Positions 33,267 through 41,641 of a stretch of DNA of 50,586 bases are shown piece after piece. Source of the stretch: Methanobacteriota archaeon (GTDB lineage: Archaea > Thermoplasmatota > Poseidoniia > Poseidoniales > Thalassarchaeaceae); assembly GCA_004195715.1 (NCBI GenBank), contig PSPX01000009.1:1-50586 (forward strand), in the 5' to 3' direction. Below the pieces are notes generated by a model. That model ran no database searches, had not been told where the DNA came from, and saw only the letters and a program-made list of their open reading frames with translations. Positions within the stretch are counted from its first letter, which is position 1; every line of letters begins with the position of its first letter. A program made the translations under genes and the position numbers.

Positions 33267-34994
33267 ATGGCGCTCGACCCTACTGGTATTGACTTGCCCC
33301 GCAAGCCCGGAGTCTACCTATTCCGGCGGGCTGATGAGCGGGTCACCTACGTCGGGAAGGCCACTGACCTACGTTCTCGTGTCAAGTCGTACTTCGTACC
33401 CAATCCCGATCGGAAGATGATTCCTCGACTGGTTGAGGACTCTGACCGCGTTGACTTCATTGTTACCAAGAGTCCGGGCGATGCCTTGATTCTCGAGAGG
33501 CAGCTGATTAGAGAGCACAAACCTCGCTACAACTCGATGCTGAAGGACGACAAATCGTACCCCTTCATCGCCCTGACTGATCATGAGCACCCTCGCATCA
33601 TCTACACACGACACCCTCCTGAGGGCTCGCTCCGATGGGGTCCTTTCGCCGATCCCGGCGCAGCCAAGCGAGTGATTCAGTTGTTGCGCCGCCAATTCGG
33701 CATCCGCGATTGTCCTGAGCTACTGCCGCAAGGTTGCCTAGCGATGCACATTGGACTGTGCCACGGACCCTGTATCGATGCGAGGGGGTACGATGAGCGC
33801 ATTGCGGCTGCAATCGGTGTCCTTGACGGTGACGCGGGCGTCCTAATCGAGTCGCTCCAGAATGATATGGATACCTCTTCGCTGGCACTGGACTACGAGG
33901 CGGCGGCTAGGACGCGTGACCTGATCGGCTCGGTCCAGAGGACTGTCTCGCAGAGAGTAGTGCACAGCAGATTCTACCAGGATTGCGACGCCATTGGTTT
34001 CGCCTCTAGAGGAGATAACGGAATGGTTGTGGTCCTGAACGCGAAGGACGGCATCGTCCAAGGGCAACTCGAGTACCCGTTGGTTCACAGAGGCGATATT
34101 GCCGATTCGGTCGCCTGTGTCCTCGCTGAGCACTACTCGGGCACCAAACCCCCGCGCACTGTCCTAGTCCCGACGCCTATCGGTGAGTCAATGGGGGCTT
34201 GGTTGGTCGAACGGCGCGCCGGCGCCGTCGAGGTTAGAGTGCCACAGCGTGGCGAACTGGCTCTACTGCGCGGGATGGCTGATCAGAACGCCGAGGTGCA
34301 GGTTGAACGACACCAGAAGAGACGATCGGGCAGCCTTGAGCAGGCTGCCGCTGATGATGCAGCGAAACTGCTCGGACTTGATTCGCTTGACCATATCGTG
34401 TGCTTTGACATGGCCCAGTTGCAGGGTGACGAGCGCGTCGGAGCGTCGGTCGTACTACGCAATGGCAGACCGGCGAAGAAGGAGTATCGGACCTACCGTG
34501 TCAAGAGCGACGCTCCGGACGACCTCAGGATGATGTCTGAGGTGGTCGAGCGATGGTTGAAGCATCAAGACGGCTGGCCTGACCTGCTGCTGCTAGACGG
34601 CGGCAAGACACACCTGTCGAGCATCCTGAGAATGCTGGACGGCCACGGCCTAGCCGGGCGCTTCCCGGTGGCGGCGCTGGCCAAGCGTGAAGAGACTCTG
34701 CACATGGATGGTCGCGAAGCGCAGATTCTAAGCAAGCACGGCAGGGTTCTCGTCCATGCTCGCGATGAGGCTCACCGTTTCGTCAACCGCTACCACAGGA
34801 AACGACGTGGCAAGGGTGCAATAGGCGACCCTCTAGAGGAGATTGATGGGCTTGGGGCGAAGAAGATCCAAGCCCTGCTCCGCCACTTCGGAGGCAGGCG
34901 CGGAATAGAACATGCGAGCGTCGGAGAACTGCGCGAGGTTCCAGGAATAGGCAAGGCGATGGCTGAGCGGGTCCACGGGCACCTGAACAACTAG
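33267..34994 (+). CDS. uvrC: Excinuclease ABC subunit C
   Basis: 575 residues. N-terminal GIY-YIG nuclease (PGVYLFRRADERVTYVGKATDLRSRVKSYF region), UVR helix pair (LALDYEAAARTRD), the RNase H-like second nuclease domain (CFDMAQLQGDERVGASVV and LLLDGGKTHLSS), and two C-terminal helix-hairpin-helix units (EIDGLGAKKIQALL and VPGIGKAMAERVHG). It makes both incisions in bacterial-type nucleotide excision repair. Slightly shorter than the bacterial ~600. UvrA and UvrB are not in the window. The stop shares CTAG with the convergent gene. Confidence 0.96.
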   Translation: MALDPTGIDLPRKPGVYLFRRADERVTYVGKATDLRSRVKSYFVPNPDRKMIPRLVEDSDRVDFIVTKSPGDALILERQLIREHKPRYNSMLKDDKSYPFIALTDHEHPRIIYTRHPPEGSLRWGPFADPGAAKRVIQLLRRQFGIRDCPELLPQGCLAMHIGLCHGPCIDARGYDERIAAAIGVLDGDAGVLIESLQNDMDTSSLALDYEAAARTRDLIGSVQRTVSQRVVHSRFYQDCDAIGFASRGDNGMVVVLNAKDGIVQGQLEYPLVHRGDIADSVACVLAEHYSGTKPPRTVLVPTPIGESMGAWLVERRAGAVEVRVPQRGELALLRGMADQNAEVQVERHQKRRSGSLEQAAADDAAKLLGLDSLDHIVCFDMAQLQGDERVGASVVLRNGRPAKKEYRTYRVKSDAPDDLRMMSEVVERWLKHQDGWPDLLLLDGGKTHLSSILRMLDGHGLAGRFPVAALAKREETLHMDGREAQILSKHGRVLVHARDEAHRFVNRYHRKRRGKGAIGDPLEEIDGLGAKKIQALLRHFGGRRGIEHASVGELREVPGIGKAMAERVHGHLNN

Positions 34995-37900
34995 TTCTCC
35001 CACCAGTCCTCCTCGTCTTCCTTAGGCTTCTCTTCTGCCACGTCCTCTTCGAAGTACGCCTCATCGACTACCACTATCTTGTCGTCGAGTTTGCCGAACT
35101 CAGACTCCATGGCCAGCTCGGCGATTTTCTGCTCCTCCGCTGAGGACTCCTCCTGCTTCTTCTCATTACGCTCCATCTTGAGTCTTCTGCGTCTGCTAAT
35201 CAAAAGTCCCAGACCGACCAGCAGCACGAATAGGTACGGAGCGAGTTCGCCTAGCACGAACATCCAACTGACCTCAACAGAGTAAGATACAATGTCCGAA
35301 TTCTTGCTACACTGCGCCCAAGTCGTCGCTTCGGGGCATACTGGAGTCCTGTACACCACCACTTGCCTGCCGTCGACCTCGATCAACTCTCCGAGGTCCA
35401 TTTGACTCTCAAAGCTGAGCAGCCTAACCGAATTCGGCAGGTGTATCTCCATCCTCGCAGAGGAGCGGATGGTCCCGAACACGGTGTGCTCCATCAGCGG
35501 CGTCACTTCGAGGAAGAACTCCGCCCCCTCCACCTGGATCCCCGAATCGGTCAGTATCGGTGATCCAAAGGCAGCAGCCATCTGGTTGGCTATGATGAAG
35601 CCGATGGCCGCGGGCTGGGCCTTGATGTCTATGTCGTCGCCCCTGAGTGCGGCTGTAACGACAGTGTGTGCGATTTTGAAGCCAAAGCGCAGCGGGACGC
35701 TGTCACCGACCTCGGAGTTGCTCGGCATCGTGGTTTCCCCGAACCCCAACGAGGGAGACACAGGCAAATGAAGCAGGTCGGCAGAGATAGTGTATGGGCC
35801 CATCCCGAAGTCCTGCACGGTATTGAACGAACCTTCGGCATCTATGACCTCGCTCGATCTCATCTCCAGTTCCTCGCCCAGCATCTCCATCCCAAGATTG
35901 GATATCTCGACATCAATCGGCTCTCCCACCCCCAAATCCAACGGTGCCTCGAGGTCCGAGCCTGCGAGCAGCCCGCCTTGCAGGCGGTCTCCCATTACGA
36001 TGGCGCGTCTCAACAGATCGGCGGGGACTGGGTGCAGGGTGATATCGTCCTCGCCTAAGTCGATTTCCAGTCGGTAGATTTCCAGCACTACCTCGGCATT
36101 GAACTGGACCTCAGCGGCGAACGAGGCCTCCCGAATCGCGAACTTCTCGATGTCGACCACAATGTCGAGCGATACGCAGGTCTTCTGGTTCGAGCCGCAA
36201 ATCAGGTCGGGGCTGTCATCCTTGCAAGGGTCGGACTCGAGGCATATGGGGTGTCTCCAGTCGAAGATCCTAGTTCCGGCGAAGCCGAAGTCCAGCTCCC
36301 CTCCTCCTGTTATGGGGGCTGTGATGACAACTGTCGAGGGGTCGCCGATGGTCGACTCTATCCACTCCGGCAAGTGCAAGGTCAAGGTCAGCTCGGTGCT
36401 CGGCATGCCGTCAGGAAGCAGGTCCTGCAGCCATCCGGTGTCAGTGGAAAGCTCGACTTCGACCACGTTCATGATCGAGGCGAGGTCATCGTCGGTGACC
36501 TTTGAGAGGTCAATGGTGGTGATGTCTCCGCCGCTGTTCTCAAGCATCCTCTCGACTACCGATGAGACCCTCATCGGGGTCGACTGCGAGGTGGTTTCAA
36601 GGACGACGGGCCAGGTCCCGCCCATGGCGTCCTTGCCCTCGACGCAGTAACTGACTTCGAGTGCCTCCTCACAGGTCACTCCAGGGGTGTGACGGAAGTC
36701 CAGCCCGCCTTCGGAGTCGGCTTGTGCGAACTGCGGGGCGCCGAACCAGATGTCGGCACCCAGAGCATCGGAGAACGCCGAGGACAGTTCCTCCACGGGT
36801 ATCCCCTGAAGGATTGCTGATAGGTCCTCGTCGACTTCCTGATTGAGTAGCCTGATGCCATCGGAGGTCACCCAAGGAATCTCGATGGTGCCATCATGCA
36901 GGTCGGCGCTCCAGTCGTCGAGGGTGACGGAATCTAGGTAGTGAATCGATATCTCGAGGTCGAATCGCGAGTTCTGGGTGTCGGTGGCGTCCACTATCAG
37001 GTCAATCTTCAGTGATGGCTCTCTCAGGTCGATGCTCGCGGTCGGGGTGGTAATCGACCTGTGAACGAGTTCGGAAACAAGCCGGACCGAGTCGAGGGCT
37101 GCCTCAGTCACCGCTTGGGTGTTGTCGACGGCGATGAGAGAGTAAGTCTGAGGGTGGCCGTCGCGCATCGTCATCTTGATCGAACCGGGGGCCTCCACGC
37201 TGCTCACGTCGGCGTAGTCAGGGGGAATCACCGAGAGCTCGACCGAATGACCCATCGGCGAGCTGGCGTTGAACTCGGAGGTCAGGACCGCCCCCATCGT
37301 CAGCATGCCCTGCATCATCCGGTTGATGTCGGAGGTTTCCGGTTTCAGGCCGAAGGCGCTGGTATCGACCTCCATCTGCAGCACGACCTCGAAGCACAAC
37401 GGCGGCTGGAACGGGTCGTTGTCGAAGCCGTTGACCTCGTCTATCGAGTCGTGATCGGAGTCGTAAACGCAGCTAGCGTCCGGTTGTGCCTTGAAATCGA
37501 CCTCAGAGACAGTGGTTATGGTGGTGGTGTTGACATTAGGGAAGTTGATGTCGATGAATTCCTCCATTATCTCCTCAATCCTCTCCAGCATCAAATCTGA
37601 CACGGTGTCGCCGCCACCCCTGTGGAGACTCTGGTAGTTGCGGATGTAATCTGCAGGAATCCCATCCCATGGGGCGCTATCGCCTTCGAGGTCGAGGTCG
37701 CTGAGCTGCAAATCATCCCTTGACATCTCGTGAACTGAGAGTCCGACCTTCATCTCGACCATCTCTGCGTCCTCGATTCCTATCTCGACGGAACTCCGCA
37801 TCCACTCCTGCCCAGGAGTCTGGTCCAACGACGAGTCGTAGTCGTCGCAGACCCCACTGGCGCTATTCCATGTCGCGCAGATGTTGTTCACGACATCGGG

Positions 37901-38002
37901 TTGCCCAGGAGGGGGGTCGGCTGCCGCAATAGGCGCCATCAGGAGCATGATGAGGAGTACGGCAGTACGCTGCACAAACGCAGGCATGAACATCAGAGCC
38001 AT
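34991..38002 (-). CDS. Large signal-peptide-bearing surface protein with C-terminal anchor, family unknown
   Basis: 1003 residues from the ATG at 38002; two more in-frame ATGs (37993, 37987) also precede the signal peptide (FVQRTAVLLIMLLMAPIAAADPP). Longer readings to 38194 run into the divergent taw2 and are rejected. The ectodomain is rich in beta-type and amphipathic sequence with several Cys (e.g. CVYDSDHDSIDEVNGFDNDPF, a Ca-loop-like stretch; CSKNSD near the end). A membrane segment (PYLFVLLVGLGLLISRRRR) and a ~65-residue highly charged cytoplasmic tail ending EDEEDWWEN close it. I recognise no named family. Confidence 0.8.
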   Translation of the reverse strand: MALMFMPAFVQRTAVLLIMLLMAPIAAADPPPGQPDVVNNICATWNSASGVCDDYDSSLDQTPGQEWMRSSVEIGIEDAEMVEMKVGLSVHEMSRDDLQLSDLDLEGDSAPWDGIPADYIRNYQSLHRGGGDTVSDLMLERIEEIMEEFIDINFPNVNTTTITTVSEVDFKAQPDASCVYDSDHDSIDEVNGFDNDPFQPPLCFEVVLQMEVDTSAFGLKPETSDINRMMQGMLTMGAVLTSEFNASSPMGHSVELSVIPPDYADVSSVEAPGSIKMTMRDGHPQTYSLIAVDNTQAVTEAALDSVRLVSELVHRSITTPTASIDLREPSLKIDLIVDATDTQNSRFDLEISIHYLDSVTLDDWSADLHDGTIEIPWVTSDGIRLLNQEVDEDLSAILQGIPVEELSSAFSDALGADIWFGAPQFAQADSEGGLDFRHTPGVTCEEALEVSYCVEGKDAMGGTWPVVLETTSQSTPMRVSSVVERMLENSGGDITTIDLSKVTDDDLASIMNVVEVELSTDTGWLQDLLPDGMPSTELTLTLHLPEWIESTIGDPSTVVITAPITGGGELDFGFAGTRIFDWRHPICLESDPCKDDSPDLICGSNQKTCVSLDIVVDIEKFAIREASFAAEVQFNAEVVLEIYRLEIDLGEDDITLHPVPADLLRRAIVMGDRLQGGLLAGSDLEAPLDLGVGEPIDVEISNLGMEMLGEELEMRSSEVIDAEGSFNTVQDFGMGPYTISADLLHLPVSPSLGFGETTMPSNSEVGDSVPLRFGFKIAHTVVTAALRGDDIDIKAQPAAIGFIIANQMAAAFGSPILTDSGIQVEGAEFFLEVTPLMEHTVFGTIRSSARMEIHLPNSVRLLSFESQMDLGELIEVDGRQVVVYRTPVCPEATTWAQCSKNSDIVSYSVEVSWMFVLGELAPYLFVLLVGLGLLISRRRRLKMERNEKKQEESSAEEQKIAELAMESEFGKLDDKIVVVDEAYFEEDVAEEKPKEDEEDWWEN

Positions 38003-38037
38003 AAGTCTGAATCCAAAATGCTTCGACCAGAGGTCAG

Positions 38038-38955
38038 ATGCATAGGGAAGATCCGCACCGCCGTCTCGTCGAGTCTGTCGGAGAGGTGTTGCGTGGGGCT
38101 GGATTGAGAGATGAGGAGTGCATAGCACTCCTAGACCGGTTGCCGAGCAAGTGGGAGAGATTTTCCGATGTCGTTCTGCTGCCGAACTCAGCATTCCAAG
38201 GGAAATGGGATTTGCATGTCTCGGAGGAGCTTTGGAGGGCGGTTGCCGAGGCGTTGAAGGTCAACAGATTGGCAAAGCTCGGAGAGATATCGGGGGAGAT
38301 GCGCGAGAGTTCTGTCGAGATGTTACTCGGCGAGGACGACTGGGTCGTACGCCGGGAGAACGGGGTGGATTACGGATACAACCTCACCCAGTGCATGTTC
38401 TCAGCGGGCAACGTCAACGAGCGGCGCAGGATGGGAGAGGTAACCGGCGCCGGCGAGGTCGTGGTCGACCTGTACGCCGGCATAGGCTACTACTCGCTGC
38501 CTATGCTGGTCCACTCGCAGGTCGATCACATCCACTGCTGCGAGTGGAATCCGAACGCTGTGCGGGCGCTCGAGTCGAATCTCAAGAGCAACGGGGTGAC
38601 GGGGCGCTGCACCGTTCACTTCGGTGACAATCGAGTCACTGCGGCAAATCTGGAAGGAGTTGCTGATCGTATCATCCTCGGTTTACTACCGTCAGCCGAG
38701 GACGGGTACGCCATCGCTATGGCTGCTCTCAGACCCGCCGGCGGCGTGCTACACGTGCACGGCGTGGCAGCATCTGGGAATCACGTTGCTTGGGCCGCTG
38801 ATGTTACTGAGGCGCTGCGTGAGAGGGGGAGAGGATTCGCAGTAGATGCAGTCGAGGCGCTGAGGGTGAAGAGCTACGCGCCGCACTGGGACCACGTTGT
38901 GCTCGACGTCACGGTCTCGGCTGCTAGCCGTCGAACTCAAGTCGAGCAACCCTAG
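38038..38955 (+). CDS. taw2: tRNA(Phe) wybutosine enzyme Taw2 (TYW2-like aminocarboxypropyltransferase)
   Basis: 305 residues. Trm5/TYW2-type class I SAM enzyme: motif I VVDLYAGIGYYSLPM, acidic ribose-binding CEWNPNAV, and the motif LGLLPSAEDG, which in TYW2/Taw2 replaces the NLP/NPP motif of Trm5 methyltransferases. The N-terminal region (VLLPNSAFQGKW and VNRLAKLGEI) also matches the family. Taw2 transfers the 3-amino-3-carboxypropyl group of SAM to the imG-14 base at position 37. The first pathway enzyme, Taw1, begins at the right edge of this window. Confidence 0.88.
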   Translation: MHREDPHRRLVESVGEVLRGAGLRDEECIALLDRLPSKWERFSDVVLLPNSAFQGKWDLHVSEELWRAVAEALKVNRLAKLGEISGEMRESSVEMLLGEDDWVVRRENGVDYGYNLTQCMFSAGNVNERRRMGEVTGAGEVVVDLYAGIGYYSLPMLVHSQVDHIHCCEWNPNAVRALESNLKSNGVTGRCTVHFGDNRVTAANLEGVADRIILGLLPSAEDGYAIAMAALRPAGGVLHVHGVAASGNHVAWAADVTEALRERGRGFAVDAVEALRVKSYAPHWDHVVLDVTVSAASRRTQVEQP

Positions 38956-38964
38956 CCCGTAGGC

Positions 38965-39651
38965 ATGGCTGCCGATTGGCTACTAGAGGCCGCTGTCCAG
39001 TACAACGAGCAATCGTTGGAGGGCAGGGACGGCTACCCAGCTCATCTCTTGATGCCGGTAGATACTCTGGCGCAGATACTCGATTGGACCTTCCAGTCGT
39101 TGCCCGATGAGATTCTCGTGGGGATAGACGTGAATCCTGACCTCCCTCACTCAGGAGAAGTCGAAAAGACCTACTGCGGGGCTGATTTCGAAAGTGGTTT
39201 GTTCTCGGGCCAAGGCTTCGTTCTCGGTGAGCCGCATCTTGTCAACCGGGGTGACTCATATTCTGTCCACCACGTCCCCGAGGAGTGGATGGACGGTCTA
39301 TTCGATGAATCCAGAGGAGTGAGGGGGGGACGTTTCTCGCACTGGCTGCACACCCATCCGAATGCTCCTGCGATACCGAGTGGGGCCGATGCCGAGTCCG
39401 CTCAGTGGACTGAGGGTTGTGACATGATTCTCGGCGTTCGCTACTCTCCAGAGGGCATGCTGCCGTGGCTCGAGGGTATCGAGGGCGAGCGTCGAGAGTT
39501 GACTCCAGACGACGATGGTCGCCCTGTCATCGGCAGAGCCGTGACGGGGCATCTTATTCACGGACTCGAACTGATCGCCTTCCACAGAAGAGGTTTTGCG
39601 GTCAATGTGGTCTTGACCGACGCTGTAGGTCTGCCAATTGAGCGGCAATAA
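38965..39651 (+). CDS. JAMM/MPN-domain metalloprotease
   Basis: 228 residues. The motif HTHPNAPAIPSGAD (residues 129-142) is a canonical JAMM centre: H-x-H, seven residues, Ser, two residues, Asp. An acidic residue upstream (DEILVGI, ~49) fits the JAMM Glu. Archaeal JAMM enzymes can remove ubiquitin-like SAMP modifiers or process sulphur carriers; the substrate here is not shown. It is larger than minimal archaeal JAMMs, with an N-terminal ~45-residue helix and a C-terminal strand-rich part. It starts nine bases after taw2, so the two are co-transcribed. Confidence 0.85.
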   Translation: MAADWLLEAAVQYNEQSLEGRDGYPAHLLMPVDTLAQILDWTFQSLPDEILVGIDVNPDLPHSGEVEKTYCGADFESGLFSGQGFVLGEPHLVNRGDSYSVHHVPEEWMDGLFDESRGVRGGRFSHWLHTHPNAPAIPSGADAESAQWTEGCDMILGVRYSPEGMLPWLEGIEGERRELTPDDDGRPVIGRAVTGHLIHGLELIAFHRRGFAVNVVLTDAVGLPIERQ

Positions 39652-39771: not shown

Positions 39772-40308
39772 TTAGTCACGGAATACGTGCTCTCGGTAGT
39801 GCTCCAGCTCAGCAATGCTGCCTCGGATATCGTCGAGCGCCCGGTGCCCTGCGGGCTTGGTCGCTCGGGGCAGATTCGGGTACCATCTGTCGACTAGTTG
39901 CTTGATCGAGGTCACATCGACGCTGCGATAGTGAAAGAAGTCGTGCAACTCGGGCATGTAACGTCGCAGGAAGCGCCTATCTTGGCCGATAGTATTGCCG
40001 CAAAGCGGCGATACACCCTCGATGCAGTGTTCACGCAGGAACCCAATTGTCAACATCTCGGCCTCGGCAATCGGAATTCCATGGTTCCTGACTCTGTCCA
40101 GGAGCCCGTTCTCGGTGTGGTGTGTGAGATTCCAATTGTCCATCTTAGCCAGTTCCGACTCGGGCTGTGAAATCGCGAAAGCCGGTCCCTCGGCAACCAC
40201 AGTCAGGTCGCCCTCGGTTACTATGGTGGCAATCTCAATAATGGTATTCTCTTCAGGATCGAGACCGGTCATCTCGAGGTCCATCCAGACCAGTCGCTCC
40301 TCGACCAT
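39772..40308 (-). CDS. orn: Oligoribonuclease (DEDDh 3'-5' exoribonuclease)
   Basis: 178 residues, the usual length. All DEDDh residues are present: D10 and E12 (VWMDLEMTG), D110 (CGNTIGQDRRFL), H155 and D160 (GHRALDDIRGSI). FFHYRSVDVTSIKQL is another family hallmark. Orn degrades 2-5 nt RNA to mononucleotides and in bacteria also clears pGpG. It is very close to bacterial Orn in every motif, and Orn is not a usual archaeal enzyme, so transfer from bacteria is likely. It stands alone, flanked by an AT-rich region on one side and a divergent transporter on the other. Confidence 0.95.
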   Translation of the reverse strand: MVEERLVWMDLEMTGLDPEENTIIEIATIVTEGDLTVVAEGPAFAISQPESELAKMDNWNLTHHTENGLLDRVRNHGIPIAEAEMLTIGFLREHCIEGVSPLCGNTIGQDRRFLRRYMPELHDFFHYRSVDVTSIKQLVDRWYPNLPRATKPAGHRALDDIRGSIAELEHYREHVFRD

Positions 40309-40375
40309 GCGACTGGCGCTGGCGGGACAGACTTAGGGCTTCTCATGCAAGGGCGAGTATCATAGTGCCCTGACC

Positions 40376-41641
40376 ATGCGCATGGACATGAGTGGTGTAG
40401 GTTACATCGAGTTGCTGAGAAGGAACTCCTCCTTCCGTCGCCTGTTCATTGCGAACGAAATCTCGTTCATTGGCGACTGGTTCACCGTAATCGCCCTCTT
40501 CATTCTCGCGGGGGAAGCCACCGACAACTCGCCACTGGCGATTGCTGGTGTGATGGCCTCGAGGAGTTTTGCACTGGCTTTGGTAACTCCGTTCACGGGG
40601 ATGCTGGCTGACCGATATTCACGCAAGGGACTCATGTTGGGTGCTAACATCGCTTCTCTGGTTATTCTCGTTTTCGTACTTGCTTTAGATTTGCTAGGGA
40701 GTCTGACATCGGTGTATGTACTGGCGGTGGTGATGGTGGCTGCTAGAGCAGTCTTCGACCCCGCTGAGTACGCATATCTTCCCAACATCTGTGACGATCA
40801 GGAGCTGTTGACTGCCAATGCCTTGGCCTCCGGAGGATGGTCGGTGGCACTGGGGCTGGGTTCCGCAATAGGCGGGCTGACCATCTCCATTTACGGCATC
40901 CAGACGGCGCTGTGGATAGACACTGTGACCTTCATTGCGGCCGCCATAGGAATCATGACACTGCCCCCCGGTGGCCCAGACACCACAGAGAGGAAGAGCG
41001 CCACCCCCCGAGTGGTCGTCGGCGAGATTGTCGCTGGATGGAGGTACATCCTATCCAGCCCGCCGCTGCGCAGGGTGGTGTTTGCCAAGGGCCTGTGGGC
41101 ATCTGGAGGCGGGGCTCAGGTTTTCCTTCTAATTCTGATTGGGATGGAAGCAGGATTCGGTGAGGCCGCGGCGGGCATCGGCATCCTATTCATGGCTAGA
41201 GGATTCGGTAGTGGTTTCGGACCCATCGCAGGAAGGCCACTGATGGAGAACCCACGTCTGAGGCCGTATCTTCTGGGACTCTCTGTGGGAGTCTGCGGGC
41301 TGTTCTACATCGCCGTCTCGGCCGTGGAGTGGACTGAGATGGTTCTGATTCTGGTGTTCTTCTCGCATGCTGCGAGCGGTCTTAACTGGGTACTTTCAAC
41401 CACTTTCCTACAGGAGAGATCTGCCGACGAATGGCGCGGTAGGGTGGCTGGAACCGACCACTTCGGAATCACCTTGACGATGGGAATCTCAGCAGTAGTC
41501 GGGGGACTCATCATGGAGAACGGTCTTCTCGAACTCAGAGAGTTGATTGCCCTGACCGGGATGGTTCAGATTGTCCTCGGACTGGCTTGGATTGTGCTAG
41601 CCTCTTCACATGAGAAGAGACTGCTAGACCAGACTCTGTAG
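40376..41641 (+). CDS. MFS transporter (MFS_3/EntS-like exporter)
   Basis: 421 residues with about 12 hydrophobic segments. SFRRLFIANEISFIGDWFTVIALF is the characteristic opening of the EntS/MFS_3 efflux group, and TGMLADRYSRKGLMLG is the loop 2-3 MFS motif; RAVFDPAEYAYLPNI also fits. Probably a drug or siderophore-like exporter; the substrate is unknown. Three in-frame ATGs occur within the first five codons. Its last 18 bp overlap the end of the convergent membrane-protein gene. Confidence 0.88.
   Translation: MRMDMSGVGYIELLRRNSSFRRLFIANEISFIGDWFTVIALFILAGEATDNSPLAIAGVMASRSFALALVTPFTGMLADRYSRKGLMLGANIASLVILVFVLALDLLGSLTSVYVLAVVMVAARAVFDPAEYAYLPNICDDQELLTANALASGGWSVALGLGSAIGGLTISIYGIQTALWIDTVTFIAAAIGIMTLPPGGPDTTERKSATPRVVVGEIVAGWRYILSSPPLRRVVFAKGLWASGGGAQVFLLILIGMEAGFGEAAAGIGILFMARGFGSGFGPIAGRPLMENPRLRPYLLGLSVGVCGLFYIAVSAVEWTEMVLILVFFSHAASGLNWVLSTTFLQERSADEWRGRVAGTDHFGITLTMGISAVVGGLIMENGLLELRELIALTGMVQIVLGLAWIVLASSHEKRLLDQTL

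Follow-up and report, generated by a model that had tools for sequence, protein, structure and literature searches.

A probably bacterial-derived oligoribonuclease settled in the archaeal class Poseidoniia

The orn locus and its protein

The window, a stretch of 50,586 nucleotides from a genome of the archaeal family Thalassarchaeaceae, carries a gene for oligoribonuclease (Orn) among the features collected in Table 1. The open reading frame lies on the minus strand and begins with ATG, while the plus strand of the same interval is broken by stops. Its GC content (0.561, with 0.576 for the window) and GC3 (0.682) are within the range of the neighbouring genes. The short gap between orn and the divergent transporter gene probably holds both promoters.

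Table 1. Features at and around orn in the window
Feature	Position	Strand	Basis
TRM5/TYW2-type enzyme (Taw2-like)	38038..38955	+	Best NCBIfam match archaeal Taw2, 141.6 bits, below equivalog cut-off of 550
JAB-like protein, convergent neighbour of orn, kept in own family	38965..39651	+	Pfam Prok-JAB, 20.9 bits, below cut-off of 25
orn, oligoribonuclease, 178 aa, DEDDh exonuclease (stop codon included)	39772..40308	minus	ORF, profile, structure-sequence matches, residues
67-bp gap between divergent orn and MFS genes	40309..40375		Sequence read
MFS transporter, neighbour of orn kept in own family	40376..41641	+	Pfam MFS_1, 116 bits

The encoded protein matched the NCBIfam oligoribonuclease equivalog NF003765 at 244 bits, over the curated cut-off of 106, and did so at full length (residues 3-177 on profile positions 5-180 of 189). 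Pfam RNase_T was matched at 101.6 bits (cut-off 24). All 24 distinct sequences of solved structures matched at E <= 0.001 are Orn or REXO2 (E-values 1.4e-64 to 3e-39), the nearest being Orns and not RNase T or DnaQ. Judged by its sequence, the gene is a genuine and complete oligoribonuclease, and a chance match is out. A second RNase_T-type protein of the same genome (L002, contig C39) was considered as a further Orn and rejected, being a DnaQ/PolC-type exonuclease that the Orn profile did not recover.

Residues were compared in an alignment of 233 Orn-type rows with profile scores of 120 or more, in which there is some duplication among own-family loci of one genome (L001 duplicates the window). 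In E. coli Orn numbering, the protein keeps the DEDDh set D12, E14, D112, H158 and D163. Also kept are the leucine wedge L18, the base-stacking pair W61 and Y129, and residues Q111 and R130. For the Vibrio cholerae enzyme, D12 and H158 have been named as catalytic, roles have been described for L18, W61 and Y129, and the phosphate cap has been assigned to S108, R130, S135 and Y129 (PMC6613908). Within this cap the archaeal protein retains R130 and Y129 and carries Thr for both S108 and S135, so that the hydroxyls are retained. T108 recurs in 6 of 108 mainly gammaproteobacterial rows (all Pseudomonadota apart from L169, a Desulfobacterales row) and in 13 of 23 prophage-edge rows; position 135 is Ser in every row of both sets (108/108 and 23/23). 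The original prediction of a full-length Orn with all DEDDh residues was thus confirmed, and its near-textbook motifs held for the catalytic and substrate residues but not for the two cap serines.

The protein resembles the bacterial Orns of E. coli, Vibrio cholerae and Coxiella in length, family, DEDDh residues, L18, W61, Y129 and R130, and is 52-58% identical to the E. coli, Acinetobacter and Aeromonas rows (E. coli 53%, Aeromonas 58%). It differs from them in its archaeal host, in Thr at positions 108 and 135, and in coming from a phylum whose sample gave no GGDEF match. Eukaryotic REXO2 (mitochondrial Orn) belongs to the same family, and its chains match the window protein at 162-166 bits, below the scores of bacterial Orns (up to 220 bits).

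Three genomes of another own-family genus, g4, carry strongly diverged Orns beside the usual neighbours (L132, L133 and L134 in G201, G330 and G363). These score 154-166 bits on the Orn profile, compared with 239-270 for L126, L127 and L131, and have Phe for Y129 with the catalytic residues kept. Within the same genus, G107 has a normal Orn and G073 matches neither Orn nor DHH.

Gene neighbourhoods were compared at 48 orn loci, at 43 of which the Orn group itself was recovered, longer overlapping frames having displaced it elsewhere. MFS neighbours were found at 27 of the 48, JAB-like ones at 24 and Taw2-like ones at 20, all in the window's own family or in MGII-type records without a family code, and the order MFS - orn - JAB-like - Taw2-like is common to many own-family loci. 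A different block recurs in the second family (gene groups 8, 10, 11, 12 and 13, at 8 to 11 loci each) and another in the third (gene groups 19 and 20, at 6 loci each). A 1067-aa frame at 34991-38194 on the minus strand, which has no Pfam match and whose C-terminal part looks membrane-anchored, adjoins the Taw2-like gene at 13 of the 48 loci.

Distribution of orn and of other nanoRNases

Thalassarchaeaceae (f1) is placed by the NCBI taxonomy in class Candidatus Poseidoniia of phylum Thermoplasmatota. The window's genome (G000) measures 1.448 Mb in 42 contigs and is 91.9% complete and 0.28% contaminated. The second (f2) and third (f3) families we take, from rank and recall, to be Poseidoniaceae and marine group III.

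In the window's genus, Orn was found in 12 of 13 genomes, the one miss being 66% complete. A draw of 389 genomes across the phylum recovered it in 51 of 55 genomes of f1, 67 of 71 of f2 and 7 of 8 of f3, the non-matching rows listed for these families in a table ordered by kinship being taken as complete. This amounts to 125 of 134 sampled genomes for the three families, read as Poseidoniia, with 124 of the 125 matches over cut-off and the remaining one a contig-end piece (G382). No Orn match was obtained in four own-family genomes (G073, which is 92% complete, G168, G250 and G386). Outside the three families none of the 255 sampled genomes of the phylum had an Orn over cut-off, the eight weak matches there being under 32 bits. 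Three of the 14 control genomes matched (E. coli, Thermotoga maritima and Corynebacterium glutamicum) and the archaeal controls did not; for absence beyond the phylum we rely on these archaeal controls and on the literature, in which Orn is widespread in eukaryotes and, among bacteria, found mainly in Proteobacteria and Actinobacteria (PMC8492067).

Since orn is present in 125 of 134 genomes of the class and over cut-off in none of the 255 elsewhere in the phylum, it is native to one class, Poseidoniia, where it is old and settled and not a recent arrival. A recent bacterial transfer into one or a few genomes was rejected given the 125 of 134 class genomes that carry the gene. The original prediction, a bacterial-type gene acquired by an archaeal genome through transfer, is partly borne out, as a class-wide and old acquisition and not one specific to this genome; the wide native distribution in archaea that would have spoken against it was found by half, Orn being wide within one class and absent over cut-off from the rest of the phylum.

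Other known nanoRNases were then considered. DHH-DHHA1 proteins of the NrnA/NrnB kind do the same job as Orn in organisms without it and belong to a different protein family. Orn, NrnC and NrnA/NrnB have been described as largely mutually exclusive (PMC8492067), NrnB homologs have been reported in archaea (PMC12709177), and among archaeal DHH proteins one is pAp-specific and another cleaves nanoRNA (PMC8268124). The archaeal DHH pApase, too, is of another protein family than Orn. The search for DHH-family nanoRNases that had been proposed as a check gave no DHH domain (PF01368) in the 13 genomes of the window's genus, by profile and in incomplete genomes, and no RNase D/NrnC domain (PF01612) was found in the six genomes of that genus surveyed. 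With no DHH-domain protein of any kind, the 13 genomes also hold no recognisable RecJ/GAN-type protein.

Across the own family, DHH occurs in 54 of 148 genomes and 7 of 11 genera, which by elimination leaves none in g1, g7, g9 and g10; Orn was found in 9/9, 8/8 and 1/2 genomes of the DHH-free genera g7, g9 and g10, respectively. In a phylum draw of 145 genomes, DHH was present in 5 of 12 from f1, in all 22 from f2 and all three from f3, and in 105 of 108 from other families. Two of the f1 DHH proteins were examined and are 328-aa DHH-DHHA1 proteins below the NrnA equivalog cut-off. PF01612 was found in 6 of 60 f1 genomes, all of genus g6. With DHH in 0/13 and PF01612 in 0/6 genomes, Orn alone among the known nanoRNase types was detected in the window's genus, for which it is probably the sole nanoRNase. 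As to the proposal that Orn replaces or adds a nanoRNase, it looks to be alone in this genus, and other genera have it side by side with a DHH-DHHA1 protein.

Origin of the archaeal Orns

Trees were built from 183 alignment columns with 87 rows, with 76 rows after removal of long branches, and with 76 rows after Desulfobacterota had been added. One duplicate and one long-branch row were left out of the first; 12 more, among which were the Desulfobacterales row and four Orns of the own family with diverged sequences, were left out of the second, and eight rows, together with L293 and L294 (51-55 bits), out of the third. The trees were made up of archaeal and bacterial rows alone, the latter from two phyla and from prophage edges, and the Desulfobacterota tree was rooted on prophage-edge rows taken as actinobacterial.

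In the phylogenetic check suggested at the outset, the three family types fall beside different bacterial Orns. In the Desulfobacterota tree, f2 groups with four of the eight Desulfobacterota rows (support 95/85), f1 with Gammaproteobacteria and the other four (82/73), and f3 lies outside both groupings (100/97). The f2 rows are 48-53% and the f3 rows compared 49-50% identical to the window Orn, and the Orn of one f1 relative (L011) is 65% identical to that of E. coli. Both f1 and f2 Orns fall outside the sampled gammaproteobacterial rows and are not nested among them, hence the donor would be either ancient or unsampled. The root used leaves the archaeal types outside the gammaproteobacterial one, but a donation of Orn from archaea to bacteria is not read from this, given that only two bacterial phyla and the prophage-edge rows were sampled.

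The reading we moderately prefer is that Poseidoniia gained Orn independently two or three times, f3 from an actinobacterial-like or unsampled source, f2 from a Desulfobacterota-like one and f1 from a gammaproteobacterial-type stem. The tree positions of the three types point this way, as do the three different loci and the type-specific residues; against it, the fork joining f1 with Gammaproteobacteria is weak, the columns and the bacterial phyla sampled are few, and the approximately unbiased (AU) test on the Desulfobacterota-added tree gave p 0.071 for f1 and f2 as one clade. A single gain by the Poseidoniia ancestor, after which the gene diverged and moved, so that each of the three families came to have it at a locus of its own, is possible but the less probable account. 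It would explain the class-wide distribution most simply, and the AU test does not reject f1 and f2 as one clade (p 0.225, 0.426 and 0.071 for the 87-row, 76-row and Desulfobacterota-added trees). One clade of all archaeal rows was left unrejected by one of three AU tests (p 0.123, on the second tree), but was rejected on the other two (p 0.0048 and 0.034, respectively), and it appeared in none of the bootstrap trees (0/400, 0/1000 and 0/1000). The three conserved neighbourhoods are moreover unrelated, and residue types differ by family, W61 being Tyr or Phe in f3 and position 111 being Thr in f3, nearly always Asn in f2 and mostly Gln in f1. Two or three ancient gains are therefore favoured by the sequence comparisons, with a single gain keeping a real share of the probability.

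Vertical inheritance of an Orn ancestral to archaea and then lost almost everywhere else is very improbable; the archaeal types do lie deep, outside the sampled Gammaproteobacteria, but the absence over cut-off from all 255 genomes in the rest of the phylum and from the archaeal controls argues against it. A contaminating bacterial contig can practically be dismissed: the bacterial affinity of the protein is what it would explain, and against it stand the 89-kb length of the orn contig, the low contamination of the genome, the presence of the same gene block in many Thalassarchaeaceae genomes, and the Taw2-like neighbour, whose archaeal wyosine-pathway type points to an archaeal contig. Genus-wide presence in a conserved block rules this origin out, and the contaminating contig named beforehand as a possible undoing of the prediction was not found.

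Plasmid and phage records also hold Orns, but as a vehicle they were rejected, all matches being below 60% identity to the window's protein; the IMG/VR Orns (55 loci) reached at most 52% identity to the first row of their alignment, and a viral vehicle was likewise set aside. A second, diverged type of Orn (H10-H54, about 33-38% identical to the window's) occurs on numerous large plasmids of Pseudomonas and on some of Vibrio. In many predicted prophage contigs of IMG/VR (L210-L231), Orn is located at the very end, and a tRNA-His gene lies near orn in 12 of the 19 prophage-edge contigs scanned. The orn/tRNA-His end of these prophages marks a recurrent site of integration, probably in actinobacterial hosts.

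In the f2 genus g20 (G307 and G384, both of the two examined), the genes on either side of orn are closest to those of f2, but the Orn (L152/L279, L278) is of f1 type, with 61-63% identity to f1 rows. Either an in-place replacement by the f1 type or retention of an older state may account for this. Taken as a whole, the fuller scenario, in which the class gained Orn two or three times at three loci, passed one type between families, and came to use it as the sole nanoRNase in four DHH-free genera, the window's among them, is put forward tentatively, at slightly less than even odds.

Function and biological meaning

As a member of its family, the protein would act as a homodimeric DEDDh 3'-5' exonuclease with two-metal catalysis, hydrolysing diribonucleotides to 5'-mononucleotides and cutting other RNAs of 2-5 nt more slowly. 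It would thereby complete the RNA decay begun by the exosome and other RNases. The gene, presumably gained long ago from bacteria and by now settled in Poseidoniia, would supply the one nanoRNase of a known type that was detected in the window's genus, where it is for that reason probably indispensable. That this is a functional Orn, bacterial-derived and settled in the class, and the only nanoRNase type detected in the window's genus, is given a probability of about 0.85; its activity, essentiality, donor and number of gains we infer from sequence comparison.

A drift from diribonuclease to some other short-oligonucleotide substrate through the double Ser-to-Thr change in the cap appears improbable. 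The change itself and the much more divergent, Y129F-bearing Orns of the three g4 genomes would be in keeping with it, but Thr keeps the hydroxyl, T108 is also found in the bacterial-type sets, and the remaining substrate residues checked are all kept.

An effect on cyclic-dinucleotide turnover, raised as a possibility in the original prediction, is unsupported. The synthase families sought were GGDEF and DAC (the c-di-AMP cyclase). GGDEF was found in none of 116 genomes of the phylum with a profile that matches 8 of the 14 controls, and DAC in 38 of the 116 (11/15 in f2, 0/3 in f3) but in none of nine from the own family, the window's genome included. With neither family found, there is no known source here of pGpG or pApA from c-di-GMP or c-di-AMP, and the substrate of Orn in this organism is most likely the dinucleotides left by RNA decay. 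A link to c-di-AMP is possible in f2.

Early import of bacterial genes into these archaea is documented, with 416 early-transfer gene clusters in GII/III-Euryarchaeota (PMC4122925), so the kind of event is already known; the main text of that paper contains no word beginning with "ribonuclease". Among the titles and abstract openings listed from the open-licence literature, none reported an oligoribonuclease in Marine Group II, Poseidoniales or Thalassarchaeaceae, and its occurrence may be recorded in the survey figure of archaeal classes in PMC8492067. The enzyme family is a known one and its archaeal host has been little noticed; the interest lies in the probable repeated gains and in the genus with no DHH match. 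To the genes that marine group II/III archaea took early from bacteria, Orn would add one for an enzyme of housekeeping RNA metabolism. To our knowledge, little is understood of how the dinucleotides left at the end of RNA decay are disposed of in archaea; the question becomes testable in a lineage that has Orn and in which neither DHH nor RNase D-type proteins were detected, and where Orn should be indispensable.
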